In this document: positions 16,102 through 53,659 of the stretch, piece after piece
Numbering within the stretch: the stretch's first letter is position 1
Layout: each line of letters opens with the position of its first letter
Assembly: GCF_964355755.1 (NCBI RefSeq)
Contig: NC_092674.1
Coordinates: 17,494,501 to 17,558,500, forward strand
DNA from: Antedon mediterranea
Lineage: Eukaryota; Echinodermata; Crinoidea; Comatulida; Antedonidae
Direction: 5' to 3'
DNA length: 64,000 bases
Program-made: the position numbers and the translations under genes
Notes under the pieces: model-generated
Told to the model about the DNA's origin: nothing
Databases searched by the model: none
What the model saw: the letters and a program-made list of their open reading frames with translations, nothing else

Positions 16102-16117
16102 AATAAATAACTATGCT

Positions 16118-19620: not shown

Positions 19621-19755
19621 CGCGTTTTTCATCAAGGCAGAGAAATCTGCAACAATTATAACGGTGATAGAGGGTGTGTAAAGATAAACTGCAATTTAGC
19701 TCACATTTGCTTGTTATGTAAAGGCGGCCACTCACAGTCAGCATGCAGGTGGTAA
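19621..19755 (+). pseudogene. DIRS-like gag, C-terminal Cys/His region
   Basis: The translation REICNNYNGDRGC, NCNLAHICLLCKGGHSQSAC is the Cys/His-rich end found in DIRS/Ngaro gag proteins and inferred to bind nucleic acid. Its frame is shifted by one base relative to the central gag part even after the SINE is removed, so another small indel is present. Confidence 0.7.
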
Positions 19756-19789
19756 AAAAACGGACAGGGGCCTCAAGTGATAGAGGCCA

Positions 19790-20812
19790 CTGCACAACGT
19801 TAAACGAACCCGCTAACTATGATACAACAATAACCACCCCTATAAATATTGAACAGCTTCATAAGCATATGGCGCTGTGTCCAAACCCGTATCTAAAGAA
19901 CTATTTGTTAGACGGGTTGGTATATGGTTTTTCTACAGGTATCAAATCACTTCCAGAGCAATTGATTGAATGTAAGAACTTAAAATCGGCTACAAGGCAA
20001 CCCGATACGGTTGCTGAATTGGTAAAAACAGAAGTTACCAAGGGATATTTATTAGGCCCATAAAATGTTATTCCATACAAACAATATCGCATAAACCCTA
20101 TCGGTATCGCAGAAGGTAAATATTCCAACAAAAAGAGACTAATCGTTGACTTGTCCGCTCCGCACGATGATTTAACAACCCGAGCTTGAACGAACTTATA
20201 GATAAAGATCAGTATTCACTACAATACGTCAAAATAGACGACGCTATTAGAATGATTAAAAATCAAGGTCGTGGAGCATTATTGATAAAAACAGATATAA
20301 CTGACGCATTCAAATTAATACCCATCCACCCAGGACTGAGAGGCTACCATGGAATTAAATGGAACGAACAATATTACTTCTTTAAACAACTTGTTTTTGG
20401 TTGTCGTTCAAGTCCAAAAATAGTTGACACACTATCCCAAGCAGTTTGTTGGATAGCTTATAACATTCATAATATTCTTCATCTTCTGGACGATTTTCTT
20501 GTAATAGAATCTCCGACGGCAAACGCACATTCAACCAAAATGCGTTTTCTGGATATGTTTAAAACCCTTGGTATTCCGCTATCAGAAAAGAAATCAGAAG
20601 GACCTTCTACGTCGTTAGAATACCTCGATATATACCTCGATTCGATTAACATGGAAGCGAGACTACCAACAGAAAAAATAGCTAGAATTAGAAATATTAC
20701 AACGGAATTCAGTAAGCGTGCCTCCTGTACAAAAAGAGAATTATTGAGTCTCTTGGGGCATTTAAATTTTGCTTGTAGGGTCATACACCCTGGGCGTGTT
20801 TTGCATTACAAA
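19790..20812 (+). pseudogene. DIRS-like reverse transcriptase
   Basis: The segments read in order as INIEQLHKHMALCPN, LKNYLLDGLVYGFSTGI, SATRQPDTVAELVKTEV, VIPYKQYRINPIGIAEGKY, KRLIVDLSAPH, SLNELIDKD, LLIKTDITDAFKLIPIHP, GIKWNEQYYFFKQLVFGCRS, LHLLDDFLVIE (catalytic Asp pair), SEKKSEGPSTSLEYL and LLSLLGHLNFACRVIHPGR. This is the DIRS-clade RT arrangement. A TAA follows LLGP at 20061-20063 and a frameshift lies near 20172, so it is dead. The frame ends abruptly after HPGR at an inversion breakpoint. Confidence 0.82.
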
Positions 20813-21206
20813 TGTTTTGCGACTTCTTAATCCCTCGTAACACATAGTGGAGTCTGTTTGCCCCCACTGTAACATCTCGTAAACCTGCTTTAATATAATG
20901 GAAACGTATTCCCGCCAGATACAAGTTTATTGTTTCAAATTTCAGATCTAGCGCTTTTTTGCAATGGGTAACAAAGTATATAAGTTGGTCCTCGTCAATT
21001 AGCGGAAGTGTTGCTTTCTTTACTGGTACGCCTGACATGGTCAAGAATGTTAGGAAACACCGCAATGCAGATTTATATACTCTCTTCGTAGAATCAGAAA
21101 TAGAGTTGTCCCATAACTGTTCGACTTGTAGTTTCAATTCATTAGAAGCTCTGAATGGTGTACGCATGGTGTCGGAAGAGCATTGGCTGTTGGTACAAGC
21201 CGTCAA
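20800..21206 (-). pseudogene. Tyrosine recombinase, N-terminal half only
   Basis: The translation has the core-binding helices of DIRS/Ngaro-type recombinases: LWDNSISDSTKRVYKSALRC, FLTFLTMSGVPVKKATLPLI, QLIYFVTHCKKALD, TINLYLAGIRFHYIKAGL and LHYVLRGIKKSQ. The catalytic R-H-R-Y domain should follow but the frame ends at the inversion breakpoint (NAKH, then reversed RT sequence). It overlaps the RNase H frame end by a few bases in another frame, so a frameshift separates them. Such enzymes insert circular element DNA; this copy cannot. Confidence 0.78.
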
Positions 21207-21754
21207 AATTTCTGCATCTGGTGGCGAGAAAGAGCATCAGCTATAACGTTATGTTTCCCTGCAATATGAGTAGCGCATATATGATAATTATGGATAGCAG
21301 AATGATATGTTAGTTTCCTCATCAGTTTCATAATATCAGGTATTCTGGACCTACCCTTGGAGACGATTTCAACCGTGGCCATATTATCGCAAAGGAACAT
21401 TATTCGGTTTCTAGCCCAATTATTACTCCATAATACACATGCCATGACGATGGGATAAAGTTCAAAGAACGCCATAGACGTCTTGTCCGTAAGGTATATT
21501 TGTGGGAAATTTCCCTGAAACCATTCGTTCCGATATATACCACCAAAAGATGTGCGTGTTGCATCGGTGTACAGCGAAATGTCATTAGCAATTGTGATAT
21601 TATCATTTAAAAAGAAAGATACACCATTCCAGTGTTTTAAAAACAGGGACCACATCGCTAAATCTGCTCTACAATCTTTGTTGATACGTACATGATGGTG
21701 TAGTTTCTTTTTTAGGCTGATTAAATAGTAGCCCCCTGCCACTGCTTCATGTTG
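21203..21754 (-). pseudogene. DIRS-like RNase H domain
   Basis: The motifs are LYTDATRTSFGGIY (first Asp), MAFFELYPIVMACVLW (Glu), NRIMFLCDNMATVEIVSKGR (Asp), and ICATHIAGKHNVIADALSRH (His/Asp). This matches the RNase H that follows RT in DIRS elements; the preceding linker YYLISLKKKLHHHVR is also typical. The open frame's apparent start in a T-rich tract is artificial. Confidence 0.82.
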
Positions 21755-21960
21755 TATATATAAAAAAAAAAAAAATAAAAAAAATGGATCTTCATCCAAA
21801 TACACATGTTCGGCTAGGGTAGCGCTTATCTTCCCATTGGATCTTCATCCAATTATCCAAGCCTCCCTACCACTGCTTCATGTTGTATATATATAAAAAA
21901 AATGGATCTTCATCCAAATACACATGTTCGGCTAGGGGAGCGCATATTCCGCCAAAACCC
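21735..21960. repeat. Local direct duplication with A-tract
   Basis: CCACTGCTTCATGTTGTATA, an A-tract, and ATGGATCTTCATCCAAATAC with CACATGTTCGGCTAGG occur twice (about 21738-21822 and 21871-21944). The first copy touches the right inversion breakpoint, so the duplication may be a by-product of the repair that inverted the neighbouring segment. Confidence 0.7.
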
Positions 21961-22376: not shown

Positions 22377-23883
22377 AAGCATAATTATTGGATTTTAAAA
22401 AGTGGGACATTTTTCGAAAAAAATTCCTATGGTCCCCCGCAGGAAAATTTTTCGAAAAATGGCCAAATTTTTACCCTTTTATTTTTTGACATAACTAGTT
22501 ACTATGGCTCTATAAGATTATGTTAGCACAATATATTTGCATAAATGGCAATATTATAGCATAATTATTTAATTTTAAAAAGTGGAAAATTTTGGCATTT
22601 TTCGACCCTTTTATTTTTTGACATAACTAATTACTATGTCTCTATAAGATGATGTTAGCACAATATATGTGCATAAATGGCAATATTATAGCATAATTTT
22701 TGAATTTTAGACAGTTTAAATTTTGGCCATTTTTCAAAAAAAAAATTCCATAGGTCCCCCGCAGGGAAATTTTTGGGAAAATGGCGAAATTCGACCCTTT
22801 TATTTTTTGACATAACTAGTTACTAAGGCTCTATAAGATGATTTTAGCACAATATATTTGCATAAATGGCAATATTATAGTATAATTATTTAATTTTAAA
22901 AAGTGGAAAATGTTGGCATTTTTCGACCCTTTTATTTTTTGACATAACTAGTTACTATGTCTCTATAAGATGATGTTAGCACAATATATGTGCATAAATG
23001 GCAATATTATAGCATAATTTTTTAATTTTAGAAAGTTTAAATTTTGGCCATTTTTAAAAAAAAAATTCCTTTGGTCCCCCGCAGGGAAATTTTCGGAAAA
23101 TGGCCAAATTTCGACCATTTTATTTTTTTACATAACTAGTTACTATGGCTCTATAAGATGATGTTAGCAAAATATATCTGTATAAATGGCAATATTATAG
23201 CATAATTATTTAATTTTAAAAAGTGGAAAATGTTGCCATTTTTTGACCCTTTTATTTTTTAACATAAGTAGCCGCTATGTCTCTTTAAAATGATGTTAGC
23301 ACAATATATTTGCATAAATGGCAATATTATAGCATAATTTTTGGATTTTTTAAAAAGTGGACATTTTTGCCATTTTTCAAAAAAAATCCTATGGTCCCCC
23401 ACAAGAAAATTTTCGAAAAATGGCCAAATTTCAATCCTTTTATTTTTTGACATAACTAGTTACTATGGCTCTATAAGATCATGTTAGCACAATATATTTG
23501 TATAAATGGCAATATTATAGCATATTTTTCGAATTTTAAAAAGTGGAAATTTTGGTTATTTCTCGAAAAAATTCCTGTGGTCCGCAGGGAAATTGTCGGA
23601 AAATTGCCAAATTTCGACACTTTTATTTTTTGACATAACTATTTACTATGGCTCTATAAGATGATGTTAACACAATATATGTTCATAAATGGATATATTA
23701 TAGCCTAATTATTGAATTTTAAATGGTAGACATTTTGGTTATTTTTCGAAAAAATTCCTGTCGTCCCCCAACCGGAAATTTTCGGAAAATGGCCAAATTT
23801 CGACCCTTTTATTTTTTGACATAACTAGTTACTATGTCTCTATAAGATGATGTTAGCACAATATATGTACATAAATGGCAATA
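22377..23883 (+). repeat. Satellite C array, forward orientation
   Basis: About eight monomers of the same family as 8426-15010, in the same orientation. It continues the monomer interrupted by the DIRS-like element and is itself broken at ...GGCAATAAATT by the next transposon. Confidence 0.9.
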
Positions 23884-23887
23884 AATT

Positions 23888-23906
23888 AAGTGTAGCGCCC
23901 CCAACG
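23888..23906 (+). repeat. Left terminal inverted repeat (RAG1-like element)
   Basis: AAGTGTAGCGCCCCCAACG abuts the last satellite bases. It matches the inverted right end at 15 of 19 positions, including the GCGCCC core. It shows no RSS-like heptamer. Confidence 0.55.
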
Positions 23907-24290
23907 TTCATATCGTTTTATGGAGTAGCGATTCCGAAAACATATTGTATACAAACCACACGAGGTACCCGGAAGCGATCAAGCATAAAACGACTGTATT
24001 TTAATAGCCAATAAAAACAAATAAAAACCGCGAAAGCCAGAAAAATAATGAATATTCATTAGAACAACCCTAGATGAAGGTGAAAAAGATGTTGATGTCG
24101 TTTTATCACGTGGATTTTCAGAGGGAATCTAACTGAAAGTTAACCAACATTGTATACTCAACGCCAGTTTTTTTCTCAAGTGATACATTTAAAAAGTAGG
24201 TATAAATTTTTTTTTCCATATCAGTTTAAAAATAATTTTTTCTGTTGAATTCTTTGATTTAGTTGGATACTATAGTTATCCTTGAATGTT

Positions 24291-25679
24291 TTAAAGTGGA
24301 GCTCCACCCAGAAAATTACTATTTTTCATACATTTCAACGATTATTTAAAAATATCATCGCTTATACTTCATATTTTTTTGAAATTTTTTTCAATGAGTA
24401 CGATTTTCTTGAAAATCACGCCTTTTTGCGTTTTGGGGGGATACCTTGTAATTTCCTATTCTTTGACATGCAAAAGGGGGGTATATTTGAATAATCCTAA
24501 AAAATTCATTTCTTCACCAAAAAAAAAATGTAAAATGTATATTTATGTAATTTTTCCAGATCTTTCTATTTCTGGTATTTTTATCACGTATACATTGCGC
24601 AATTTTGCGTAAATAGACACTTTCCCCCGTTCGGGTCCAATTGGGTTTTTTATTTTGCTAGGGAGTACGATCACGTGACATTTTTCACAATCACACTACA
24701 CTGCAGCTGGCGATCTGTTATTTTGTCGCGATGTTATTTTTGACGGGCGAAAAGTATATTAAAACATTCTGAATGTGACCCTATTATGTTTCACAGTGTA
24801 ATAATGTGATTATGAGACTATTACTAAAATGTCAAATTTAACGAGATTTGAGAAAGACGTGGCTATATATTCAATAAAGCTAGGCCTAGGCCTACTAGAG
24901 TGTAGGTATGTACCGATGCTGCGTGGCCTCTAGCTAGGCTAGGCTGACAGCAGTGAAGTTTGTTTTGCTGGCACCCGACCTTGGCCTACCCATGGGCCAT
25001 GATAGGGTGCCTGAATAGTTGCTTTTCAGTCAGGTCTAAGCTTGCACATCGCTTTACTACTCTTGTTCTGTATACTATAGGATTTTGTGTTTCACAATTC
25101 TTAATGTGCGAGAAAACCCAGGAACGATAAATGGGGCAAAACGACCATGCCTATGAATACATAGGCCTCTAGACAAAAATTCAAGGCTAGCTAGGCTGAG
25201 CAGAAGCTGAGCTAGGCCTAGCCCTAGCTTAAAGTTAAAAGCAATCTGATAAGATTATTATGCTGTTGTTGTACAGTGAAAATCATGAGGTTACATGTAA
25301 ATTATAATGACATTCTTATCGGAAATATTACTTAGGCCTAAACAAATCGTATTAATTAATTGTGTGTATAAAATTTATTCCCCATTTTTCGACACATAAT
25401 TTACCAAAGGGGAGACATTTCATCAATGCGTTGACCGGCGACTAAAACGCGTCAGTCGCTAAGTGTAACGCGTTTGCGACGTATTGTAAACTAATAACCC
25501 CTAAGTTACTGAAAAACTGTAATGTGTTAAAAAACACTATTTTCTGACCAATTTTTTAGAAATGATTTTTAGGAAAATATTTCCGTATTTGTCCTGTTTT
25601 TTTTTTATGTAATCACTTTCAATTAAACATACTTAAACATAATATAAGCTGAGAAAGTCTGAGTGTAGCTCCACTTTAA
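24291..25679. mobile_element. Non-autonomous TTAA element (Kolobok/piggyBac-like ends)
   Basis: TTAA at 24291-24294 is followed by AGTGGAGCTCCACCCAG. The other end reads CTGAGTGTAGCTCCACT then TTAA (25676-25679). The inverted repeats match at 15 of 17 bases next to a TTAA target duplication, the hallmark of Kolobok and piggyBac superfamilies; a TIR starting with AGTGGAG is more Kolobok-like. The 1.38-kb interior has no transposase, only AT-rich and TAGGCCTAG-rich sequence (about 24880-25220). It lies downstream of the RAG1-like gene. Confidence 0.75.
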
Positions 25680-26387
25680 CAAGGTTCGTATTCATATAGC
25701 CTGGCTGGATTTTTTCCTATGCTAGCTAGGCCCAGGCCCCCTTGCGTGGTTAAAACCAGCTGTGTAAGACTAATGGCTGTGTATTTTTAACAGGTAAACA
25801 TGTCTGTTCTGGGGCCTGAGTGACAGTTTAAAGCTGTTTCTAGTAGGCTAGCCTGGTCCTAATTAATAATAAGGCCTAGCCTAGGACCTAGCTAGGCCTA
25901 AGATATTTTAAAAATCATATTGGGAGGGGAGTTACACTACAGTAGGTCAGGCTACATGCCTATACTATATATAAAATATAGGCTACATCATCAGCAGGTT
26001 AAGGCCTAGCAGCCTACCTAAACCTGTCTTAGTCAAAGATAAGTTCTCGGGGTGTAATATATTAAAAGAAAGAAGCTATAGAGTACTGTGACATTAGATA
26101 TTTAATTATAACAAATGTATATTTCTTTCATATTTGTATTGTATATTTATTATTAATACAGTATTTTGATATGCAATCAAAATCTGAATCAGTATATAAC
26201 ATCAATTTCAATAAATATTTAATATATTAAAACCAAATTAAAATAAAATAACTTCCAAAAATTCAATTACAATTCATATACCATTTGTTAATATTTCCAA
26301 AATCATTGTTCTGGCAATAACAAAAAAACCACTACCATTCATAATATGTACAATACTGTAACAATTAACTGAGTGAGAAATAGCAAA
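25680..26387. other. 3' flank of the RAG1-like gene
   Basis: No ORF is convincing. TAGGCCTAGC-rich sequence fills 25690-26030, followed by AT-rich sequence up to the stop codon at 26388. A reverse-strand AATAAA lies near 26145 and could serve as the polyadenylation signal about 240 bases after the stop. Confidence 0.4.
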
Positions 26388-26695
26388 CTATTCCTCAACT
26401 TTTCTGCACTTGGGCCTAGTCACCTCATGCTGGATCTCGGGTGAAATAAAAGTCAGATGTGACTTCATGATTGACATAAGCTGGTCAAGGTTGCTCTTTA
26501 ATCCATATACCGCCCTTTTCCGGCGATTAAATTCTGAGTGGATTAATTCGCCGCCTTGCTCAGCTCAGAGTCCAACTCCTACTCTCCATTCTTTCATAAA
26601 CGGTATTGTGTGGTGCTCCAACATGTGCAATTTTGGTTGAATCACATTTGGAGCGATGCGTCTGTATTCTTTGGAGAACAGTTGTATGTAGGTTT
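26388..26695 (-). pseudogene. Coding exon 11: zinc His pair and catalytic Glu, interrupted by TGA
   Basis: Acceptor ACAAAACAG. It reads TYIQLFSKEYRRIAPNVIQP, KLHMLEHHTIPFMKEWRVGV, a TGA (26567-26565), then AEQGGELIHSEFNRRKRAVY and a final helix ending KCRKVEE before TAG (26390-26388). The histidines pair with the C-x2-C of exon 6 in the C2C/H-H zinc site of CMC/RAG1 enzymes, and the Glu of the EQGGE block is the predicted third catalytic residue. The TGA stands in the GxGL-x-AEQ context where relatives usually have Gly, so a single GGA-to-TGA change explains it. Confidence 0.8.
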
Positions 26696-26904
26696 CTGTT
26701 TTGTGAAAAAATTGTTTTTTTAAATTTTAACATTTTATTTGAAAGATGTATTGTCTTTTGAAATGACAAAAAATCATGAATTAAATTTTAATGTAACAAG
26801 AAAGTTTATAAATGAGAATTTAAATTATACAGATGTTAATCACACATTAAGAATAAATAAAACCAGACAAAATTCACATTTTTTGGTCATCAGTTTTTGC
26901 TTAC

Positions 26905-27112
26905 CATATTGATCTATTTCTGAATCAGTGATGCGCCTAGTATGGTTTATGCATTCATGGACAATAGTAAAGGTTTTGAATACAGGTGTAAATGATTCCT
27001 GTATCTTGTGCAATTTTGTTTCAAGCAGTTGCTTACAGTTTGTAGGACAGTGATGTATCTGTTGCTTTAAAGTCATTGAGACACCATCCATGAGCTTTTC
27101 TATGATGTTGAA
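26905..27112 (-). pseudogene. Coding exon 10: helical linker
   Basis: Acceptor ATTTTTAG, donor ATG|GTAAGC. It encodes FNIIEKLMDGVSMTLKQQIH then a helix ending HTRRITDSEIDQYG. The frame is intact and in phase with both neighbours. This is the helix-rich region before the third acidic residue. Confidence 0.75.
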
Positions 27113-27250
27113 CTAAAAATAAAATGAATAGTTTAAAATAAAACATTTACAGTATGGCGAGAGTCAATCGCAAATAATTCTTAATTTTATTACTAATTTT
27201 GCTGTGTAAAAATTAACGAACTTCACATTTTAGGAATTTTAGTTACTCAC

Positions 27251-27389
27251 TTTGCATGCTCTGTATACATGGTTTCCCACAAAACTCTTTCCGTGGTACT
27301 GCTGTCGAGGAATTTTATTTTTCCTCAACACCTCGTCCATTTTTGTACATAGAGGTCCAGTTCCAAATTTTATCTCTTGGTTCATAGTA
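27251..27389 (-). pseudogene. Coding exon 9: YHGKSFVGNH block
   Basis: Acceptor ATACCGAAG, donor AAA|GTGAGT. It encodes FGTGPLCTKMDEVLRKNKIP then RQQYHGKSFVGNHVYRACK. GPL...LDxVL and YHGxSFxGNH are the most conserved blocks of the C-terminal part of the family. Phase with the next exon agrees (AAA|TTC); the upstream junction does not, implying an indel or a misplaced boundary. Confidence 0.75.
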
Positions 27390-27496
27390 CTTCGGTATAT
27401 AAAATATAAAAGAAATATAGCATTAATTTTTATAGTAATGTATTGTATGTTTTAGACATAATTTTAAATTTTAAAGGTGTATACTGTAGTACTGAC

Positions 27497-27712
27497 CAAG
27501 TCTTTGACCTCTTGTTCTTTCAGATTTATTATGTGGCCAGTCTCTGCAATCTCTGCAATCTTGTTATGCTGTTTTGTCACAAGTGACACTGAGAGCTCGT
27601 TTCTTAAATCCTCAAGATTCTCTTCTAAAGACTGGATTAATTTTAATCATTGTAGCATTTCGATGCGCTGCAGCTTCTGATATGCTTTTCTCAAAGTCTG
27701 CTAGATGATCAC
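27497..27712 (-). pseudogene. Coding exon 8: coiled coil with frameshift
   Basis: Acceptor AATCTCAG, donor TTG|GTCAGT. It starts GDHLADFEKSISEAAAHRNA and, after a one-base insertion near ATTAAAATTAATCC (about 27640), continues as LIQSLEENLEDLRNELSVSL and HNKIAEIAETGHIINLKEQE. The heptad pattern predicts a coiled coil. It belongs to the variable helical insertion of this transposase family. Confidence 0.68.
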
Positions 27713-27989
27713 CTGAGATTATACAATATTGGTCAATCGAATAAATTTCAATCTGCATCAAAAATGTGCATCAAAATTAGTATATTTAAAAAATGTTAAT
27801 GATAATATGGATAATTCATAGAAAAATAAGTTTCAGCCAAAGGTTTGTTTATTATGCATAAAAACAGGATAAACAATTTCGAAATTTACTGAATTCTATG
27901 CGGAAAGGGACAATGTATATTTAAAAAGCAACTTGACCAATTGAGTTTATTTAATGTCAATGTAAAGTTGAAACAACATTTGAAGTTAC

Positions 27990-28116
27990 CAGTCAAGATG
28001 TCACCATCCTGTCGCATGTTAAAAATTATAACATCAAGATTGTGCACGTCTTTTTCCAGCATATCATAGAGTTTTTTAAACAACCCAAGAGAAATGTGTA
28101 ATGCTGGTATTGACAC
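27990..28116 (-). pseudogene. Coding exon 7: PALHISLG segment
   Basis: Acceptor TTTTTCCAG, donor ACTG|GTAACT. It encodes VSIPALHISLGLFKKLYDML followed by EKDVHNLDVIIF. The proline-alanine-leucine-histidine motif followed by an amphipathic helix is the family's conserved block between the second Asp and the coiled coil. The frame is intact. Confidence 0.78.
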
Positions 28117-28353
28117 CTGGAAAAATAGTTGATTGAGGAAATATTTAATAAAGAGGTATATTTATAAATTACTGTAACAATTGTTTGTTTTGACAGTTAT
28201 TTTATACTAACATTGTTATTTAATATGGAAGTACAAACACACATTTCATTGTTTGGAGTGTGTATTAAACTTTCTAAATTGAGATTTTAAATAATTTTGA
28301 ATTTAACCTAACATAAACACTGGGGACCTGTGCTGTTATGATTATTTACCTAC

Positions 28354-28549
28354 CCTGTTTAATTCGATGTCTACCAGGTATGGCCTAACAACGCTGTGCG
28401 ATATTGTTTTGCTTTTTTTTTGTCACTCCCATGGTCTACAAAAGACTTGTAGTCACGATTGTAGGTCTTGAGACATCTACAGGCTTAAGGAACATTGTTG
28501 TTTCTAATGTCATCTTGATTACAAAAACAATAGATGCAACTGTACTTTC
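28354..28549 (-). pseudogene. Coding exon 6: zinc C-x2-C, stop and frameshift
   Basis: Acceptor TTTAAAG, donor AGG|GTAGGT. It begins GKYSCIYCFCNQDDIRNNN with the C-x2-C pair. A TAA at 28487-28485 interrupts it. The same frame then gives CRCLKTYNRDYKSFVDHGSD and a Lys-rich segment AKQYRTALL, after which a missing base shifts to PYLVDIELNR at the exon end. The 196-base length is one short of the expected phase, confirming the deletion. Confidence 0.75.
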
Positions 28550-28683
28550 CTTTAAAAAAAATCAATTTTTAAATCTACATAATATATATAGTACTTCAGT
28601 TTTGTGTAACAAATGCCAAACAATGAGAGCTAATAGCCAAAATATAAAAAAAAAATTGTATTGAAACTGGAAATTGTACTTAC

Positions 28684-28760
28684 CATTTGGGCCAACAAGT
28701 CCATATACCTTTGACAAAAAATCATAATCCCCAAAAAAGAATAGGCGGATATTTTGAGTT
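28684..28760 (-). pseudogene. Coding exon 5: second catalytic Asp
   Basis: A 77-base exon with acceptor TTTTACAG and donor ATG|GTAAGT. It encodes TQNIRLFFFGDYDFLSKVYG then LVGPNG. The strand-Asp-helix-GLxGxxG layout matches the second Asp of RAG1/CMC enzymes, which is followed by a zinc C-x2-C pair; that pair is the start of the next exon. Phases on both sides agree. Confidence 0.8.
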
Positions 28761-28946
28761 CTGTAAAATGAGAAGTTATTTTCATTCAATTACCATGAAT
28801 TCTAATTAATTACATTAATCATAATTAAAGATATACAAATTATGTAAAATTTTCAAATTAAGTTGCATATTATAATTATGTAGCTCTGCTATATACTTAA
28901 GTCAGTGTTACTCATTCCAATATTATACTACTGTATTTAATATTAC

Positions 28947-29198
28947 TTTTTGGTCTTTGGTGAGGTCCACTGGTTTTCATCTAAATCCATGACTTCATCA
29001 AGAACCAGTTTCAAGCCTTTTTCGACATTAACTATAAAATCTGGTGCTTGGAATGCAAAAATGACAATAATATTGTGCTGTGCATTGGGTTTAGGTAAAC
29101 TGCAAATTTGAACTTCAAATTTAGTGGTATCACCACCCTTGTCTCCTCCAAACTTGAGAAATATATCTCCATCTTTGAAGAAGTTCAATTCATCAGAC
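28947..29198 (-). pseudogene. Coding exon 4: first catalytic Asp
   Basis: Acceptor TTTTGTAG, donor AAAAA|GTAATA. It encodes DGDIFLKFGGDKGGDTTKFE followed by PNAQHN, a hydrophobic strand (IIVIFAF) and a helix. GGDKGG is the highly conserved first-Asp motif of this transposase family, at the position of the first catalytic Asp in the RAG1 core. Confidence 0.78.
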
Positions 29199-29280
29199 CT
29201 ACAAAATTTAAAATTGCTTGATTATTTTGTTAAAAAATTAAATATAATTTAAGTCTTCCCTGACTAGATGTGTAATTATT

Positions 29281-31127
29281 TGTGTACAGCCAAATCAAAA
29301 CCAGGCATTTGTCGTAAATGTGACATTTTGAGTTTTATAGGTATTTGTACAGAGCACATAATTTGCTTTAAAATACTGAAAAAATTATTCAATTTGGTCA
29401 AGTATTTTTAGAGTTATGATACAATAAGTAAAGAAATACAAGTAAGAATTCATTTTTATTTAGCAGTGAAAAATGCATTCAAAGATAAACAATAGTTCAA
29501 ACAGGAAGTTTAAATGTGCTGGCAGACAGCGACTCATGTTCACCTTGACAACGCTAACTTCTAGTATACCTATGACTTTGAAATTTAGCACAAATGTAAC
29601 TAATACATTTTTCTATAATCATTGAAATTTTCAAAGAAATCCAGTAACATTAACATTGTCAAATGAGACTTCAAATAACAACATACGTTAGTACACTTTT
29701 TTTTACTAAACTTATGATTGTTATGTGTGAGGCTTGTAATAACTATAAATAAGTACTATAAATAAGTACTATTAATAAATTTAAAAAATACAACACATAG
29801 AAATGAACCAAAATTAATGATACACAGACAGTTGATTGTGTTTGATGTGTTTAAATTTATTTACAATTGGTACACTTTAAATTATAACATTTTGGTCATT
29901 TCAGGCTGCGTGTTACAACAGTATTATCATCTTTTGTGCCGGGTCATTTAAATACATTCATATTTTTCGATACAATTATTTCACGGTTTTATTCAGGGTT
30001 ACGTTGCATAATAGAATACATGTGTCATGTATCATCAGAATCAAAGTCATTTTTGTAAAGTTATATTAAGCACCGTATCACCATTATTGGAGTTGTTTGA
30101 GAAGAGAAAGTAGCAACAGCATCACCACCACTGTCAAAACTATTGTATTGGTATTACATTACAGTATTACCAATCAAGATCTGAAAACAGAATGAAAAAT
30201 TAAATTAAACTTTTTTAAACACATTTAAAAATCTTTTTTTTTTTGGGCTAGGCCTAGACCAAGGTATGCTAGGTGGTTTTACTAGGCTAACTTGAAGTAC
30301 TAAGCTGGCATACAGTTCATCTCTTATCTTATGCCTAGGCTAGGCCTAATATTTTGATCAAAAGTGTTTCTGTGTTCACCAAACTGAGTGTGTTGCGCTA
30401 TAAAGTCATTTCGTACTTTCTAACCTCTTGTTGTTTATGATTCGCTAGCGAAGCCAATATTTCTACTTTTCATATTATATAAATCATTAAACTATTCCAT
30501 GTTGTTTTAGTATTATCTAGGATGCATAAATAGCAAGTATGAATTAATATTGAATGTTTTTTACAGTAAGAATGTTTTGTTAAAACCTTACCGCTTCCTC
30601 AGTGTACTTTGAATAGCTGTTAAAGGCAAATTTAACGCTTCAATGACTTGAGCCACTCTGTTAGCCAATCAAATTGCCTGTTTCAGGATTCCGTAGCAAC
30701 AAGACTGGTTTGCTTATACCAAAAGGTTATTAAAGAATGTGTTTGATTGGCTATACTATTATTTTACATGACCTACAACCTTTATCTTTGGAAAGATTTT
30801 TTCACGAGCTTTCTAAAAATACCACACATTAAGGGGTCTTCTCATAATCAAAGAGGTAAAAGTTGGTTAGAAATAGACACAAATTACAGAATAGAACTTG
30901 ATTTTTTCACCAAAGACGAAAAAGGGGGTCTCATTAAAATGTTATTTTCATTGATTTATACTTATAATTTCTTTAAAATACATAGATTTTTGGAATCTAC
31001 GGTAAATTTTCTGTAAGATTATTTAAAAAACTAAAAATGGTCAAGATATAGGTTTTACACATTCAGAAGCATTTTACAGAAATCCCTTGCTGCCGACAAA
31101 CGCCTGGTTTTGGTTTGGCGGTACACA
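29281..31127. mobile_element. TIR element nested in an intron of the RAG1-like gene
   Basis: The left end TGTGTACAGCCAAATCAAAA continues to 29314. The right end (31094-31127) is its inverted copy with 3 mismatches in 34. The 1.85-kb block explains why this intron is about 2 kb while the others are 107-571 bp. The interior has no transposase. It holds a TAGGCCTAG-rich tract (30240-30350) and an inverted pair around CCAATCAAA (30665-30675 and 30741-30752). No clear target duplication was found. Confidence 0.7.
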
Positions 31128-31248
31128 TTTTATTCTTGTATTTATACCAAATGCGATCTATTATAGTATATATAATTTGTGCCAATGATACAGTACTGAT
31201 GTATGAAATAGGTTTGTTTAAAAAATAACAACAAAAAATATTACATAC

Positions 31249-31447
31249 ATATCATATTTGTTTAGGTAGTCATAGATTAGTTCTTTGATTTTGGTTAGTC
31301 GGACTACTGCAACCTCCTCCAAAACAAGACCTCCTATAGATGTGGCTCCATCTCGTTTGACAAACATGTATTCCATAGAATCTACTATGTGATCACCGAT
31401 AATCTGTTCTTGGCAAATGCGCATTTGCCTTTCAGAAGCCAAAACTC
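31249..31447 (-). pseudogene. Coding exon 3: pre-core helical segment
   Basis: Acceptor TTTTTTTTTGCCCAG, donor GTATGT. It encodes GVLASERQMRICQEQIIGDH, then a basic/hydrophobic stretch ending KELIYDYLNKYDM. The last codon is completed by the first base of the next exon (AT|G), so these two exons join cleanly across a 2-kb intron enlarged by a transposon. Confidence 0.72.
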
Positions 31448-31626
31448 CTGGGCAAAAAAAAATGTATATACAGTACTGATTAATTATAGTTTTTATAGTT
31501 TTCTATAGTATTCTAAATTCAATTTAAAAAGAAGTAAACTGTTGACTGAATAATAGTAAACAGTGGCTGTGTGGCCCGACGGAGGTCCACATACCCGACA
31601 CGAAAAGCAATAATAAAATAAATTAC

Positions 31627-31766
31627 CTCCGCAGTGCTCGTTGCTGGCTCCAATTTATGCGGCAGGCATTCATGATTGCCAAACATCTTTGGGGGTCCAT
31701 TTTCTCTTCAGTACTTGTAACACTAACAGTTGTTGTGCACTCCGATTGTTTAACAATGTTTATTGG
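31627..31766 (-). pseudogene. Coding exon 2: linker after the RGRP motif
   Basis: Acceptor AAATTCAG and donor GTAATT bound 140 bases in phase with exon 1. The junction makes RGR-PINIVK, an AT-hook-like motif sitting where RAG1 has its Gly-Gly-Arg-Pro-Arg nonamer-binding motif. The rest (MDPQRCLAIMNACRINWSQQ, RALR) is helical and matches the segment that precedes the catalytic core in this family. The phase at its 3' end is one base off relative to the next exon, suggesting a small indel. Confidence 0.7.
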
Positions 31767-31887
31767 CTGAATTTGATCAAATAAAATATTTGTATGATTT
31801 ATCAAATAATAATGTATATGAGTGGATCAAGAGTGTAGGCCTACATTATGATAAATTTAAATTAATTGTAATGGGTTAAAAACTCAC

Positions 31888-32688
31888 CCGTCCTCGAGTC
31901 ATAAGTGACACTTTCTTATTATTCATAAGGTCTTTCCGTACTATGTTGTGTGCCATGCTTTTCAATTCTTTTGGCCAAACCTCATTTGTTTGGGCAGTAC
32001 ATGTAATTTCTTCAACTGCACTTAAAATGTTGGTGAATGCCTGTTCTTTAAACGTTTTGCAAACATGATTGGGGGTTTCTGACCAAACTAATTGAATGTT
32101 ACATTGTTTGCATTGCAAAGGGACTCGTTTAAGCGATTGTTCTACAATAAGTGGAACTGGTTTGAGATCTTGGTCACTGACAATTTTGCTGCAGTTAAAA
32201 CAATCAATTGATTCTCGTCCTACTGCCTTAAACAATTTTTTTATGCAAAATGTACAAAAAAAAATGTTGACAAGATGTCTGTTGGCTGTCAATTGACAAC
32301 AAATTATTGCATATCTGACTTTCATACACTTGATTATCGTAATTTTCAAAAATTTTAAATTGAGGATTTAGTAGCAAGTGCTCATGGGTGGGAATAAAAC
32401 TGCCAGTAGTAGTGCTTCTGTTTTCGGGAAACTTGCATTTCTTCAGCCTTCGACCAGGTCTTGATTGTTGACTGAATAAGTAGCAGGCTAAGCATTTGTC
32501 TCCATGGTCTTTGAAATTAAATGGTGTTATGTTGTGTCCACCAAGTGCGCTAACGTGACAGCTTGCACATAGCCACTTAAGATTTGGATCCAAATTATAT
32601 TCATAAGTGTACTTTACATCTTTTATTTTAAATTTTTTTCCGCAACAGTAGCAAAGGGAACTTAATGCCCTTTCGTGAAACTCCATTA
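31888..32688 (-). pseudogene. Coding exon 1: RAG1-like zinc fingers and RING
   Basis: The translation begins MEFHERALSS and shows LCYCCGKKFK (Cys 12-15), WLCASCH (Cys 40 and 43), KCLACYLFSQQSRPGRRLKK (Cys 65 and 68 with a basic RPGRR tail), then a RING-like region. RAG1 has the same succession: C-x2-C, C-x2-C, C-x2-C with a basic tail, RING, then a C2H2-like finger. The RING ligand row (QIC, TSCQHFF, CTFCI, DCFNC) is split by a one-base frameshift in a run of nine T (32256-32264), and its first Cys is replaced by Ser (SQIC). A following QCKQC...NHVC matches the finger after the RING. The exon ends MTRGR before GTGAGT. Confidence 0.8.
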
Positions 32689-33259
32689 CTGTATATGAAA
32701 TAAAATATAATATAAAAAATATTAAATAAAAATAGCTCCGCAGCTTATCTGTGAAATATATTTGTAATTGTATGTGTAATTTTTATAAAGGCCTATAATA
32801 GTATAGTTACAGTAATGACTGTCACTCAGTCACACCAGCTAGCCTAAAAATGCACCAGAAAAGCAATAATTATTATTATAAACACATGCCATTAATTATT
32901 TGATAACAGTTATAATGATTAAATTTAGGATTAGGATAATTAAAGGTTTTACTACTACGAATTTTCTATGTTTGGGCCTAGCTTCATCCTAGGCTTACAT
33001 TACTGTCAAGTTTATCGCCGGCGTCAACGCACTTTCTAAGCCTATCGCCAAACCGTTTTCTCGCCGTTCACAATAACAATGTATAAAGGGGTTGCAAAAT
33101 ATGCGAGTTTTACTAAAAACTGAACCAGGCTATATTAACATAACTTGTATTATTTTATTTATATAATAATGATGGCCTATATTCTAGTTCGTTCTTTTTC
33201 TAAAAAAATGAATTATATCCAAAAAATAAGTTAAGAATACAATGATATTTTCTACTTAC

Positions 33260-33548
33260 GATTGTTTACTATTTCATTACACAGTTTATATCGACTTCCT
33301 GGTTTATGTGTGGGAGATTATTTCAGTAAAATGGACAATATCGTCGTTTATTTATTAATTTATATTAAAGAAACAATAAAATATTGATTTTTTAATTGAA
33401 CATAAACTTTTTTAATCGTTTGGTTTTGTATAAAATGTGTTTTCTACATAAAAACTAACGGTAGCAAAATTTGATTTGGCGTTCGCGAAATAATGGTTTG
33501 TAAACAAAATTCATAAGTTCGCGCGGATCGGAGAGCGTCGTCTGCTAA
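33260..33548 (-). promoter_or_regulatory. Probable 5' leader exon and promoter region of the RAG1-like gene
   Basis: On the minus strand ACAATC|GTAAGT at 33260/33259 is a strong splice donor that could pair with the TATACAG acceptor at 32689, making a 571-bp intron in the leader. The transcription start would lie between here and the right TIR at 33549. This stretch holds a small CpG-bearing segment (GTTCGCGCGGATCGGAGAGC near 33517) and no ORF. Confidence 0.4.
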
Positions 33549-33567
33549 CACTGAGGGCGCTTTACTT
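33549..33567 (-). repeat. Right terminal inverted repeat (RAG1-like element)
   Basis: Read inward on the minus strand it is AAGTAAAGCGCCCTCAGTG, matching the left end. Thirty-six bases of unassigned sequence (33568-33603) separate it from recognisable satellite C. Confidence 0.5.
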
Positions 33568-33603
33568 TTTCTGATATCTTAACACTAGTTGAAACAGCTG
33601 TGT

Positions 33604-33931: not shown

Positions 33932-35379
33932 GCGATTTTTTTTCCCGTACGAGAGTTCCTCCATCGGTTCGTTTCGGACTCAATCGACTCTTCGGTAAGC
34001 CACCGATACTCACTGATGCGTGACAGCAACCACAAAACGTGAGCAGCTTCTTTGCACGAGTGACAAATTTATACATACTATACTAGAGGCCTAATACTAT
34101 ACTCACTGTAAATATAATAATAAATATTAATAGTAGTACTGAACGTCATTGTAATAATAATAATAGTCCTAGAATTTTAATAATATAATACTGTATAGGC
34201 AGCCACAAACCAATGTATGTACCATCAGATTCACAAACAGTAACACACACACACAGCAGCAGCACTTTGTTGGTCGTCACAAGCAAGGCCAGCTAGCCTA
34301 GCCCTACGTACGTGTGCTTCAATGTAGTACATTCCATCTACAGTACTATTTTTTATTTTAATAAAATGAAGTAGTAGGTTAGAAATTATATGTACAGAAG
34401 TAACACTAACAGATGTTTTTATCAAGAAAATTACAATTTTCTTCAGGTTTTTAAGTGTAACATTTGAAAAATTGTATACATTTAGGCCTAGTATTAGTAA
34501 CATGTATTCTTGTAAGTTGTAATGTATAGAAACACATGCTTGCTTATAAAGCGTTTAATATCGTGTTAATTTAATAATTGATGATAGTATCACATATAAT
34601 TATAAGCTTCCTGGAAAATGTGTTATTATTAAATGTATTTGTACTATTGCAGTCGTGTCAGTACCGTAATTGAATGTTTTTTACTTTGCATGTATTTTTT
34701 ATGATTTTCCAAATTACATATAATAAACAATAATATTAGTTGTAGGCCTATAACTTAATTAAAACTCCAAAGTTGCCTATTATTAAAAGTCTGAAATCTT
34801 TTTTTCAAGATTGGGGATAATTAATACGTACACCTTTAACGTAAAATTTCCATTACCTTACAATATAAATATTAATTTAATAATATTATTTTAAAAGGTA
34901 TACTAAACATACACTGTGCATAGGAATTCCTACTGTACATAATCATTTTAAATTCAAAAGTAATACCTTGCATAGGCTTACATAAGCTAGCCTAGCCATG
35001 GGCTAGCTACAATACCATAAACGATAAGAAAAAGAGCCTCTCGTTCGTGACAAAAGGTCGTTCAACTTCAAAAAATAATATCTGATACGACCTACTATTG
35101 GGTCGTAGACCTAAATATCTTCAATATGCTATTGAGTTCTTAATGTAATTACTAAGTAGGCCTAGTATTTATTAATTAATGTCATCAAATCAAAACTCGT
35201 ATTAGTGTAGATTTATTTTACTATTGTGAGAGCCTGTGTGAAAGTAAGCTCGCGGTTTGTAAATGTAAATTGTATTATGTTATCACGCATCAGTGAGCTG
35301 ACTTTACCGAATACCGAAGAGAGTCGATTGAGTCCGAAACGAACCGATGGAGGAACTCTCGTACGGGAAAAAAAATCGC
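33932..35379. mobile_element. Mutator-like non-autonomous DNA transposon
   Basis: A 1,448-bp element begins GCGATTTTTTTTCCCGTACG and ends in its exact inverse. The first 60 bases of the two ends are identical and similarity continues past 90 bases (both contain CTCACTGATGCGTGA). It is flanked by a perfect 9-bp duplication GTCCCGCAG (33923-33931 and 35380-35388), and the satellite C monomer continues across it. Long TIRs plus a 9-bp duplication are the Mutator (MULE) signature. The AT-rich interior has TAGGCCTAG and (AC)n-like bits but no transposase, so it would need help from elsewhere. The perfect ends suggest recent insertion. Confidence 0.85.
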
Positions 35380-35802: not shown

Positions 35803-35934
35803 CCTTGTTTTTTGACATAACTAGTTACTATGGCTCTATAAGATGATGTTAACACAATATATGTCCATAAATGGCAATATTATAGCATAATTATTTAAAT
35901 TTAAAAAGTGGAAAAATTTTGCCATTTTCGAAAA
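35803..35934 (+). repeat. Satellite C, last partial monomer
   Basis: One partial monomer in the forward orientation, meeting reverse-oriented satellite B at about 35935 through shared CATTTTCGAAAAATG-like bases. Confidence 0.85.
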
Positions 35935-38655
35935 ATGCGATTTGAAGCTATTCTGTACACTTTGATGTTTTGTGTGAAAAAGTTTTGTCGAAATGCTCAA
36001 AATGGTCTAAAAACGTTTTTAAATACGATATTAAGCTCTTTTGTGCTCTTTGATGTTTTTGTGTAACCAAGTTTCATCGAATTGAACAAAATGGTATAAA
36101 ACGTCTCCAAATGCGATTTGAAGCTTTTCTAAGCACTTTGGTGTTTTTATGTTAACAAGTTTTTTCGAAAATCACAAAATGGTCTGAAACGTCTCAAAAT
36201 GCGATTTGAAGGTATTCTGAGCACTTTGGTGTTTTTATGTTAACAAGTTTTTTCGAAAATGACAAAATGGTCTAAAACGTCTCCAAATGCGATTTGAAGA
36301 TATTCTGTACACTTTGATGTTTTGTGTGGAAAAGTTTTGTCGAAAGCTCAAAATGGTCTAAAACGTTTTTAAATACGATATTAAGCTATTTTGTTCTCTT
36401 TGATGTTTTTGTATGAAAAGTTTTATCGAAATGCTCAAAATGGTCTAAAACGGTTTCTAATGTGATTTTAAGCACTTTGATGTTTTTGTGTAACCAAGTT
36501 TCATCGAAATGCACAAATTGGTCTAAAACGTCTCCAAATGCGATTTGAAGCTATTCTGTACACTTTGATGTTTTGTGTGCAAAAGTTTTGTCGAAATGCT
36601 CAAAATTGTCTAAAACGTTTTTAAATACGATATTAAGCTATTTTGTTCTCTTTGATGTTTTTGTGTGAAAAGTTTTATCGAAATTCTCAAAATGGTCTAA
36701 AACGTCTCCAAATGCGATTTTAAGCTATTCTGTACACTTTGATGTTTTTAACACTTTGGTGTTTTTATGTTAACAAATTTTTTCGAAAATCACAAAATAG
36801 TCTAAAACGTCTCCAAATGCGATTTGAAACTATTCTTATCACTTTGGTGTTTTTATGTTAACAGGTTTTTTCGAAAATCACAAAATGGTCTAAAACGTCT
36901 CCAAATGCGATTTGAAGCTATTCTGTACACTTTGATGTTTTGTGTGCAAAAGTTTTGTCGAAATTCTCAAAATGGTCTAAAACGTTTTTAAATACGATAT
37001 TAAGCTGTTTTGTGCACTTTGATGTTTTTGTGTGAAAAGTTTTAACGAAATGCTCAAAATGGTCTAAAACGGTTTCTAATGTGATTTTAAGCACTTTGTT
37101 TTTTTTTGTGTAACCAAGTTTCTTCGAATTGAACAAAATGGTCTAAAACGTCTCCAAATGCGATTTGACGCTTTTCTAAGCACTTTGGTGTTTTTATGTT
37201 AACAAGTTTTTTCGAAAATCACAGAATGGTCTAAAACGTCTCCAAATACGATTTGAAGCTATTCTGTACACTTTGATGTTTTTGTGTGAAAAAGTTTTAT
37301 CGAAATGCTCAAAATGCTCTAAAACGGTTTTAAATGTGATTTTAAGCACTTTGATGCTTTTGTGTAACCAAGTTTCATCGAAGTGCACAAAATGGTCTAA
37401 AACGTCTCCAAATGCGATTTGAAGCTATTTTGAGCACTTTGATGCTTTTGTGTGAAAAGTTTCACCAAAATGCTCAAAATGGTCTAAAACGGTTTTAAAT
37501 GTGATTTTAAGGACTTTGATTTTTTTGTGTAACCAAGTTTAATCGAAATGCACAAAATGGTCTAAAACGTCTCCAAATGCAATTGGAAGATATTTTAGGC
37601 ACTTTAGTCTTTTTATGTTAACAATTTTTTTCGAAATGCACAAAATGGTCTAAAACGTCTCCAAATGCAATTTGAAGCTATTCTGTACACTTTGATATTT
37701 TGTGTGAAAAAATTTTGTCGAAATGCTCAAAATGGTCTAAAACGCTTTCAAATACGATATTAAGCTATTTTGTGCACCTTGATATTTGTGTGTGAAAAGT
37801 TTTATCGAAATGCTCAAAATGGTCTAAAACGGTTTCAAATGTGATTTTAAGCACTTTGATGTTTTTGTGTAACCAAGTTTCATCGAAATGCACAAAATGG
37901 TCTAAGACGTCTACAAATGCGATTTGAAGCATTTCTAAGCACTTTGGTGTTTTTATGTTAACAAGTTTTTTCGAAATGCACAAAATGGTCTAAAACGTCT
38001 CCAAATGCGATTTGAATGTATTCTGTGCACTTTGATGTTTTTGTGTGAAAAGTTTTATCGACTTGCTCAAAATGGTTTAAAACGTTTTCAAACACGATAT
38101 TAAGCTATTTTGTCCAATTTGATGTTTTGTGTGAAAAGTTTTATTCAAATGCAAAAAATGGTCTAAAACGTTAGTAAATGCGATTTGAAGCTAATTTGTG
38201 CACTTTGATGTTTTTGTGTGAAAAGTTTTATCGAAATACTCAAAATGCTCTAAAACGGTTTTAAATGTGATTTTAAGCACTTTGATGCTTTTGTGTAAAC
38301 AAAGCTTCATCGAAGTGCACAAAATGGTCTAAAACGTCTCCAAATGCGATTTGAAGCTATTTTGTGCACTTTGATGCTGTTGTGTGAAAAGTTTTATCGA
38401 AATGCTCAAAATGCTCTAAAACGGTTTTAAATGTGATTTTAAACACTTTGATGTTTTTGTGTAACCAAGTTTCATCGAAATGCACAAAATGGTCTAAAAC
38501 GTCTCCAAATGCAATTTGAAGCTATTCTGTACACTTAGATATTTTGTGTAAAAAAATGTTGTCGAAATCCTCAAAATGGTCTAAAAGGCTTTCAAATACG
38601 ATATTAAGCTATTTTGTGCACTTTGATATTTGTGTGTGAAAAGTTTTATCGAAAT
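35935..38655 (-). repeat. Satellite B array, reverse orientation
   Basis: The same monomer family as 6295-8425 but on the opposite strand (CAAAATGGTCTAAAACG on the plus strand). The subtypes alternate in the reverse order. Short reverse-strand frames such as FDKTFHTKTSKCTK are satellite translations. Confidence 0.93.
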
Positions 38656-38742
38656 GCTCAAAATGGTCTTAAGAATTTCGATAAAACTTTTCACACACAA
38701 ATATCAAAGTGCACAAAATAGCTTAATATCGTATTTGAAAGC
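38588..38742. repeat. 68-bp perfect inverted repeat at the satellite B orientation switch
   Basis: 38588-38655 and 38675-38742 are exact reverse complements separated by 19 bases (GCTCAAAATGGTCTTAAGA). Beyond the arms the similarity continues with few mismatches for at least another 100 bases each side. To the left monomers run in reverse, to the right forward, so this is a head-to-head fold-back centred near 38665. Confidence 0.9.
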
Positions 38743-40647
38743 GTTTTAGACAATTTTGGCCATTTCGACAAAACTTTTTCAAACAAAATATCAAAGTGTA
38801 CAGAATAGCTTCAAATCACATTTGAAACCGTTTTAGACCATTTTGTGCATTTCGATAAAACTTTTCACACACAAATATCAAAGTGCATAAAATAGCTTAA
38901 TATCGTATTTGAAAGCGTTTTGGACCATTTTGAGCATTTCGACAAAACTTTTCAAACAAAATATCAAAGTGTACAGAATAGCTTCCAATTGCATTTGGAG
39001 ACGTTTTAGACCATTTTGTGCATTTCGAAAAAAATTGTTAACATAAAAAGACCAAAGTGTTTAGAATATCTTCAAATCGCATTTGGAGACGTTTTAGACC
39101 ATTTTGAGCATTTCGATAAAATTGTTCACACAAAAACATCAAAGTGTACAAAATAGCTTCAAATTGCATTTAGAGATGTTTTAGACCATTTTGTGCATTT
39201 CGATAAAACTTTTCACACAAAAACATCAAATTGCACAAAATAGCTTAATACCGTGTTTGAAATCGTTTGAAACCATTTTGAGCATGTCGATAAAACTTTT
39301 CACACAAAATCATCAAAGTGCACAGAATAACTTCAAATCGCATTTGGAGACGTTTTAGACCATTTTGTGCATTTCGAAAAAAAACTTGTTAACATAAAAA
39401 CATCGACGTTCTTAGAATAGCTTAAAATCGCATTTGGAGACGTTTTAGACCATTTTGTGATTTTCGAAAAAACTTTGGAACATAAAAATACCAAAGTGCT
39501 TAGAAATGCTTCAAATCGCATTTGGAAACGTTTTAGACCATTTTGTGCATTTCGATGAAACTTGGTTACACAAAAACATCAAAGTGCTTAAAATCACATT
39601 TGAAACCGTTTTAGACCATTTTGAGCATTTCGATAAAACTTTTCACACACAAATATCAAAGTGCACAAAATAGCTTAATATCGTATTTGAAAGCGTTTTG
39701 GACCATTTTGAGCATTTCGACAAAACATTTTCAAACAAAATATCAAAGTGTACAGAATAGCTTCAATTCGCATTTGGAGACGTTTTAGACCATTTTGTGA
39801 TTTTCGAAAAACCTTTTTAACATAAAAACACCAAAGTGCTTAGAAATGCTTCAAATCGCATTTGGAGACGTTTTAGACCATTTTTTGCATTTCGATGAAA
39901 CTTGGTTACACAAAAACAGCAAAGTGCTTAAAATCACATTTGAAACCGTTTTGGACAATTTTGAGCATTTCGATAAAACTTTTCACACAAAAACATCAAA
40001 GTGTACAAAATAGCTTCAAATCGCATTTAGAGACGTTTTAGACCATTTTGTGCATTTTGATGAAACTTGGTTAAACAAAAACATCAAAGTGCTTAAAATC
40101 ACATTTGAAACCGTTTTAGACCATTTTGAGCATTTCGATAAAACTTTTCACACACAAATATCAAAGTGCACAAAATAGCTTAATATCGTATTTGAAAGCG
40201 TTTTGTACCATTTTGAGCATTTCGACATAACTTTTTCAAACAAAATATCAAAGTGTACAGAATAGTTTCAAATTGCATTTGGAGACGTTTTAGACCAGTT
40301 TGTGCATTTCGAAAAAATTTGTTAACATAAAAAGACAAAAGTGTTTAGAATATCTTCAAATCGCATTTGGAGACGTTTTAGACCATTTTGTGCATTTCGA
40401 TGAAACTTTTCACACAAAAACATCAAAGTGTACAAAATAGCTTAATACCGTGTTTAAAATCGTTTTAAACCATTTTGAGCATGTCGATAAAAACTTTTCA
40501 CACAAAAACATCGAAGTTCTTAGAATAGCTTCAATTCGCATTTTGAGACGTTTTAGACCATTTTGTGATTTTCGAAAAAAATTGTTAGCATAAAAAGACC
40601 AAAGTGTTTAGAATATCTTCAAATCGCATTTGGAGACGTTTTAGACC
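38656..40647 (+). repeat. Satellite B array, forward orientation
   Basis: Monomers as in 6295-8425, with subtypes TTTGAAACCG, TTTGAAAGCG and TTTGGAGACG alternating. The array is interrupted at GTTTTAGACCG by a LINE fragment. Confidence 0.92.
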
Positions 40648-40649
40648 GT

Positions 40650-49470: not shown

Positions 49471-49473
49471 TAG

Positions 49474-50640: not shown

Positions 50641-51006
50641 TATTTTCAGCAGCACATGTCTGCATTTAGCGTAGATACAGCGGAAGAACTTTTTGATAAT
50701 GTGAGTACAAGTACATCTGATTTGAGTGACCTAGACATACATGTTAAATTTCTTACTGTAATCAGGGAAAGTATATTCCACCGCATCACAAGTGAGGACC
50801 AGTGGATGCCAACAGTTGATGCTTTGAAGTATCACTGGTTAAGGACATGTTGGGTTGCTTTAGTATGGTCTCAGGCAAGTACACATTTAGTTGTAATTCC
50901 TGAATGTATAAAGTATGGATGGAGCCAGACAGACCAAGGCAAGATTACTGTTATGTGGGACTCTGAAGAAAATAAATTAAAGGTAAGTGAATCAGTTAGA
51001 TATTTA

Positions 51007-53625: not shown

Positions 53626-53659
<34 letters not shown>

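Follow-up and report, generated by a model that had tools for sequence, protein, structure and literature searches.

A decayed transposase gene with a RAG1-like domain layout in the crinoid Antedon mediterranea, very probably part of a Chapaev DNA transposon

We analysed a window of 64,000 nucleotides from the crinoid Antedon mediterranea (RefSeq assembly GCF_964355755.1, contig NC_092674.1, positions 17,494,501 to 17,558,500 of the forward strand), in which a transposase-like gene of eleven exons was read on the minus strand from 32686 to 26388 (coordinates are those of the window). The results indicate that this locus very probably holds a Chapaev DNA transposon, a member of the CACTA-Mirage-Chapaev (CMC) group, in decayed form. 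Its resemblance to RAG1 is genuine, but the architecture and the evolutionary inference drawn from it have been in print since 2015. An earlier model-made reading of the letters, referred to here as the original prediction, had described the locus as a spliced RAG1-like transposase gene from another lineage, lying in a satellite array.

Gene model

The gene was assembled by exon-by-exon translation of the minus strand, which gave the following exons and motifs, with catalytic residues as presumed from the motifs:

31888-32686, minus strand: exon 1, putative RAG1-type N-terminal zinc cluster (Chapa-like), RING at about 32317-32186, then a zinc finger
31627-31766, minus strand: exon 2, opening with the P of the RGRP motif
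31249-31447, minus strand: exon 3, pre-catalytic region (part of DUF1280), frame in disagreement with exon 2
28947-29198, minus strand: exon 4, GGDKGG with the first catalytic Asp at about 29143-29141
28684-28760, minus strand: exon 5, FGDYDF with the second catalytic Asp at about 28729-28727
28354-28549, minus strand: exon 6, CIYC as the C(2)C zinc motif at about 28538-28527, one in-frame stop and one frame change
27990-28116, minus strand: exon 7, PALHISLG as the LH motif at about 28098
27497-27712, minus strand: exon 8, variable stretch with an apparent frame change inside and another at the exon 9 junction
27251-27389, minus strand: exon 9, RQQYHGKSFVGNH block
26905-27112, minus strand: exon 10, region preceding the H(4)H motif
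26388-26695, minus strand: exon 11, LHMLEHH as the H(4)H motif at about 26627-26610, EQGGE with the catalytic Glu at about 26561-26559, and the end of the gene

As originally predicted, the eleven minus-strand exons have GT-AG boundaries: all ten introns start with GT and finish with AG. The phases mostly agree, as had also been stated, with agreement at eight of the ten introns (introns 2 and 8 disagree) and a chance probability of about 0.003 at one in three per intron. Intron sizes range from 107 to 277 bp, save for intron 3 (2050 bp). Such introns would presumably be spliced in vivo.

The read-through of the exons, with X placed at the breaks, was searched against a collection of 5.8 billion proteins, of which 5327 candidates were scored. 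P0001, a protein of 989 residues from Asterias amurensis, was alone below E 0.001, with 29% identity, 88% of the query and E 5.4e-96. In addition, a profile built from the cores of five relatives (P0001 to P0005, described below) was run on all 1615 stop-to-stop open reading frames (ORFs) of 25 residues or more in the window. Eight ORFs matched the profile at E < 1e-6, every one on the minus strand and with their order following that of the exons. Exons 2 and 6 gave a further four matches (0.006 to 0.13), collinear but weaker, and the next ORF followed at 3.2. At the level of sequence, the P0001 match and the collinear profile matches confirm that the gene is real and beyond chance. Exon 8 is the weakest exon, placed by its alignment position in the gene and its splice sites only; it matched neither the core profile nor any of the five relatives by pairwise BLAST.

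Catalytic core and assignment to Chapaev

The motifs named in the original prediction (RGRP, GGDKGG, FGDYDF, C-x2-C, LHMLEHH and EQGGE) were all present. GGDKGG, FGDYDF and EQGGE are the presumed carriers of the Asp-Asp-Glu (DDE) triad, accompanied by CIYC, PALHISLG and LHMLEHH, and the key catalytic and zinc residues are identical between the window and P0001. We take the RGRP motif, split between exon 1 (RGR at its 3' end) and exon 2, to stand at the position of the GGRP motif of RAG1, with the GRP motif presumably in place of the RAG1 nonamer-binding region.

When the read-through was compared with Pfam, DUF1280 (PF06918) scored 46.9 bits (cut-off 25; E 3.4e-12), with a match that covers the first catalytic Asp, its surroundings and the stretch before it; the piece from exons 4-6 alone scored 41.6 bits (1.4e-10). 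Pfam listed no RAG1 core family for the read-through up to E 10. In the literature, DUF1280 is equated with Chapaev transposases (PMC3985635), and it is because of the DUF1280 match and this equation that the locus is filed under Chapaev. Chapaev elements are marked by C(2)C, LH and H(4)H motifs, CAC...GTG ends and target duplications of 3-4 bp (PMC4079192); the C(2)C and H(3-4)H motifs are common to a wider group that includes RAG1 (PMC12730594). Motifs, DUF1280 and the structure model of P0001 support the proposed RAG1-related DDE transposase. Of the suggestion that the element came from another lineage, the relation to RAG1 stands, but the element can be assigned to the known Chapaev.

Relatives and the RAG1-like N-terminus

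With P0001 as the query, the search returned P0001 itself and four further proteins: P0002, also from Asterias amurensis (52% identity to P0001), P0003 from the sea cucumber Holothuria leucospilota, P0004, and P0005 from the amphioxus Branchiostoma belcheri. DUF1280 was above the cut-off in all five. These results suggest that the Asterias proteins P0001 and P0002, annotated as uncharacterised, are Chapaev transposases. The N-terminus can be aligned with exon 1 in three of the five (P0001, P0002 and P0004), one of which (P0004) is recognised by the Pfam RAG1 model. In contrast, the predicted proteins P0003 and P0005 are without a RAG1-like N-terminus, perhaps as a result of gene prediction. 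By the refuting conditions attached to the original prediction the outcome is mixed: exon 1 has no Pfam RAG1 N-terminal match of its own, and an N-terminus like that of exon 1 was found in some relatives and not in others. No relatives came up when prokaryote genome contigs were scanned with P0004, or viral contigs with the alignment of all five proteins.

With a profile built from the part of P0001, P0002 and P0004 before the RING, exon 1 ranked first among the 1615 ORFs (E 2.5e-4; next 0.53). A second profile, of the RING and zinc finger, picked the second half of exon 1 (E 4.2e-5; next ORF 0.21). The cysteine pairs of exon 1 align with those of P0001. Residues 2-126 of P0004 passed the cut-off of PF12560, the Pfam RAG1 importin-binding family, and were followed by RING matches below the cut-off, while the RING of P0002 was above two Pfam cut-offs. 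The two profiles and the P0004 match support the predicted RAG1-like zinc and RING N-terminus. For exon 1 itself, the assignment as a RAG1-type zinc cluster and RING is indirect, made from sequence by way of the relatives.

A two-sequence profile of the window element and P0001, searched against the PDB, placed RAG1 first by whole-sequence score (8.6e-6), with a match that covers the RING and zinc finger of RAG1. A second stretch of this match follows the order of the core and keeps C(2)C and LH aligned, but does not reach significance alone. In the structure model of P0001, the closest PDB structure was RAG1, followed by the amphioxus RAG-like protein (BbRAGL) and then Transib, at about 16% identity to RAG1.

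These findings bear on whether the locus could instead be a decayed RAG-like transposon (RAGL, ProtoRAG or TransibSU), that is, a genuine RAG1L gene whose RAG2L partner has been lost. The domain order of RAG1, the presence of the zinc cluster and RING, and the ranking of RAG1 and BbRAGL as nearest to the P0001 model are what such an origin would give. However, the core here matches DUF1280 and no Pfam RAG1 core family, and the roughly 16% identity of the P0001 model to RAG1 compares with more than 30% reported for TransibSU (PMC4411706). A scan of ORFs of at least 85 residues, itself a weak one, showed no RAG2-like ORF, and no kelch domain was detected in four ORFs (in the 3' flank, in intron 3 and two beyond the segment), although a spliced or decayed gene could escape such a search. 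We consider a RAG-like origin very improbable, and assignment to Chapaev the better account of the core.

Decay of the copy

The gene is broken by five frame changes and two in-frame stops. The frame changes lie within exon 1 (inside the RING) and exon 6, at the 2/3 and 8/9 junctions, and apparently within exon 8; the stops lie in exon 6 and in exon 11, the latter between LHMLEHH and EQGGE. Exon 6 had been thought to contain several stops; it holds one stop and one frame change instead, and in exons 1 and 6 both reading frames matched P0002 by pairwise BLAST. The catalytic and zinc-site residues are retained despite the breaks. The full protein is no longer made by this copy, which is an inactive fossil.

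Element ends and nested insertion

The gene does not lie inside a satellite array, as had been claimed, but in a non-satellite segment between arrays, with the following features:

23884-33602, no strand: non-satellite segment of 9.7 kb holding the element, between 186-bp satellite arrays
25614-25651, minus strand: candidate 3' terminal inverted repeat, CAC on the plus strand, TAAT flank
32741-32776, minus strand: candidate 5' terminal inverted repeat, TAAT flank, with the start codon about 90 bp downstream
29282-31126, no strand: nested element in intron 3, with terminal inverted repeats of 34 bp (91% identity)

The 186-bp satellite ends at 23883 and restarts at about 33603, and its phase, as read from the coordinates, is kept across the segment but for about 11-16 bp. 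General inverted-repeat searches revealed no clear Chapaev ends. The candidate ends at 25614 and 32776 have the form CAC...GTG, with imperfect repeats of about 38 bp and a TAAT duplication. This pair scored best of the 138 CAC pairs that flank the gene in the non-satellite segment, and was the only strong one among the eight pairs with a 3-4 bp duplication. The fit to the Chapaev expectation is suggestive, and the candidate element would measure 7163 bp, about 1.85 kb of which is the nested element. Ends at the segment borders (23888 and 33567, a GC-rich inverted motif) were dropped, as 127 of 2000 random pairs scored equally.

The nested element is flanked by ATTT on both sides, as read by eye; one mismatch defeats the exact-repeat test. 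Intron 3 without it measures about 205 bp, and the large intron is therefore not a feature of the gene. The nested element also contains a short exon-like stretch at about 30668-30601 (VAQVIEALNLPLTAIQSTLRKR, with AG before and GT after, by eye), which might be read as a twelfth exon but was discarded as such because it falls within the insert.

Alternatively, the locus could be a host gene, not a mobile copy, that was domesticated from a Chapaev transposase and has since been inactivated. This would account for the many introns, and the single copy in the window and the annotation of the Asterias relatives as ordinary proteins would suit it. However, the candidate CAC...GTG ends and the TAAT duplication closely enclose the gene, and CACTA transposases, of the same CMC group, are reported to reach eleven exons in maize (PMC4158355). 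The sea-star cluster comprises 20 member sequences, which may be a multicopy family or redundant records. Domestication accordingly appears highly unlikely, and a mobile Chapaev copy remains our interpretation.

Points against the interpretation

The following results weigh against the assignment or its parts. Searched directly in Pfam, exon 1 gave no RAG1 N-terminal family match up to E 10, so that the predicted profile hit was lacking even though the exon aligns with the N-termini of P0001, P0002 and P0004; its RING reached 0.86, below the cut-off. P0001 and P0002 had no match to PF12560. In the model of P0001, residues 1-370 were almost all below 50 in the predicted local distance difference test (pLDDT), leaving the N-terminal fold unsupported by the model. 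Searched alone against the PDB, P0001 preferred TRIM RINGs, with RAG1 at 0.012. With the two-sequence profile, the RING stretch alone scored higher for BRCA1 (24.5 bits) and RAD18 (24.3 bits) than for RAG1 (22.6 bits), and the top rank of RAG1 therefore rests on the whole sequence. The same profile returned no relatives from the protein collection and missed P0001 itself, which is likelier to reflect the candidate limit than absence. As to the ends, 5 of 300 randomised flanks equalled the score of the 25614/32776 pair, which was already in a broader scan, making this a test after the fact. Finally, a single copy of the element was examined.

Other elements in the window

Searches of the window against Rfam (at the gathering threshold) and for tRNAs returned nothing. 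Satellites occupy 4-6296, 6299-8427, 8438-14878, 22417-23883, 35933-40647, 53180-62347 and 62797-64000, with at least three distinct consensuses (25 bp; 87 bp with longer periods; 132/186 bp) that alternate along the window, and the 87-bp and 186-bp families are present in both orientations. In the 25-bp array, rows 1896-2006 and 2701-2811 (805 bp apart) are alike in consensus and statistics, as are 3813-3878 and 4775-4840 (962 bp), which suggests, by repeat statistics alone, recent larger duplications.

An element of 1448 bp at 33932-35379, inside the 186-bp satellite, is bounded by terminal inverted repeats of 60 bp without a mismatch and by an exact target duplication of 9 bp (GTCCCGCAG); it resembles a recent non-autonomous element, perhaps of Mutator type. 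A non-LTR (long terminal repeat) retrotransposon lies at 15974-18444 on the plus strand, with RVT_1 at 3.9e-30 and a weak endonuclease-like ORF below the cut-off. The endonuclease ORF of a second one lies at 40649-41785 on the minus strand (Exo_endo_phos, 2.6e-10). At 19722-21844, RVT_1 (2.4e-9, 20171-20827, plus strand) stands beside an ORF on the minus strand (20784-21236) whose weak matches to the phage-integrase N-terminus stay below the cut-off, and the region resembles a DIRS-like element. Four long consecutive plus-strand ORFs at 46080-51255, with DUF6589 (1.5e-5) and CXC (TCR) both below the cut-off, may together form a single large gene or element with slight breaks.

Proposed mechanism and significance

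A single gene would have encoded a transposase of about 900 residues, comprising the zinc cluster ('Chapa'), RING, zinc finger, GRP motif and core, the last predicted to be an RNase H-like DDE domain whose C2/H2 zinc site is split. If it worked as RAG1 and Transib do, a transposase dimer may have bound two CAC...GTG ends, and the DDE site may have excised the element, which would have reinserted elsewhere with a 3-4 bp target duplication; we infer both this cut-and-paste route and the exact ends. The RING of RAG1 is a ubiquitin ligase, and by that likeness the RING here may have been an accessory. The copy lies in a satellite-rich region, has itself been struck by the 1.85-kb element in intron 3, and persists as a fossil.

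The element is a further case, outside the RAG/Transib lineage, of a transposase in which an N-terminus of RAG1 type occurs with a core like that of RAG1. This co-occurrence supports the 2015 view that the N-terminus and core were joined before RAG1 arose, not by a late fusion. The predicted bearing on how the two parts came together therefore holds, but its novelty does not, the inference having been published in 2015 (PMC4411706). P0001 and P0002 could be tested for RAG1-like activity. We regard it as unlikely that the element represents a Chapaev subfamily, as yet unnamed and rich in introns, that is found in echinoderm-like deuterostomes and keeps the RAG1 layout complete, from zinc cluster and RING through the GRP motif to the core; if it did, intact members still living would be the closest available substitutes for the protein ancestral to Chapaev and RAG1.

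Comparison with known systems

The original prediction had compared the locus with the N-RAG-TP elements of Aplysia, which are not the closest. The window element and N-RAG-TP have RAG1 N-terminal-like sequence in common, and on that ground the locus could be an N-RAG-TP element of the Aplysia kind; however, a complete DDE core follows here, whereas N-RAG-TP is described as wholly RAG1 N-terminal-like sequence (PMC8355894). Aplysia also has Chapaev elements in Repbase (Chapaev1-3_ACa; PMC4079192), and N-RAG-TP may itself be a member of Chapaev. We therefore hold an N-RAG-TP identity to be exceedingly improbable, and compare the locus, as a Chapaev copy, with the other systems.

Canonical Transib is without the RAG1 N-terminal domains (PMC4411706), in contrast to the putative N-terminal zinc cluster and RING of the window element. 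RAG1 and the RAG-like transposons (ProtoRAG, TransibSU) share with it the domain order and, as far as the P0001 model indicates, the overall core fold; they differ in the low sequence identity and in the DUF1280 core of the window element. No RAG2-like gene was seen near it in the scan of ORFs.

The closest likeness is to Chapaev transposases with Chapa and RING. According to Kapitonov and Koonin (2015, PMC4411706), Chapaev transposases carry the RAG1 N-terminal part as the Chapa domain, with a RING next to it in two subgroups (Kapitonov and Jurka 2007 is cited there), and Chapa and RING were probably joined to the core in the common ancestor of Chapaev, Transib and RAG1. The window element resembles these transposases in its RAG1-like zinc domain followed by a RING and in its DUF1280 DDE core, which has the C(2)C, LH and H(4)H motifs; the candidate CAC...GTG ends with their 4-bp target duplication would, if correct, add to the likeness. 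It differs in being broken and in its eleven exons. Chapaev3 transposases apparently have one exon in most cases and two in two families (PMC4079192); the extracts of the literature gave no exon counts for the other Chapaev subgroups. The many exons are the least ordinary feature of the element.

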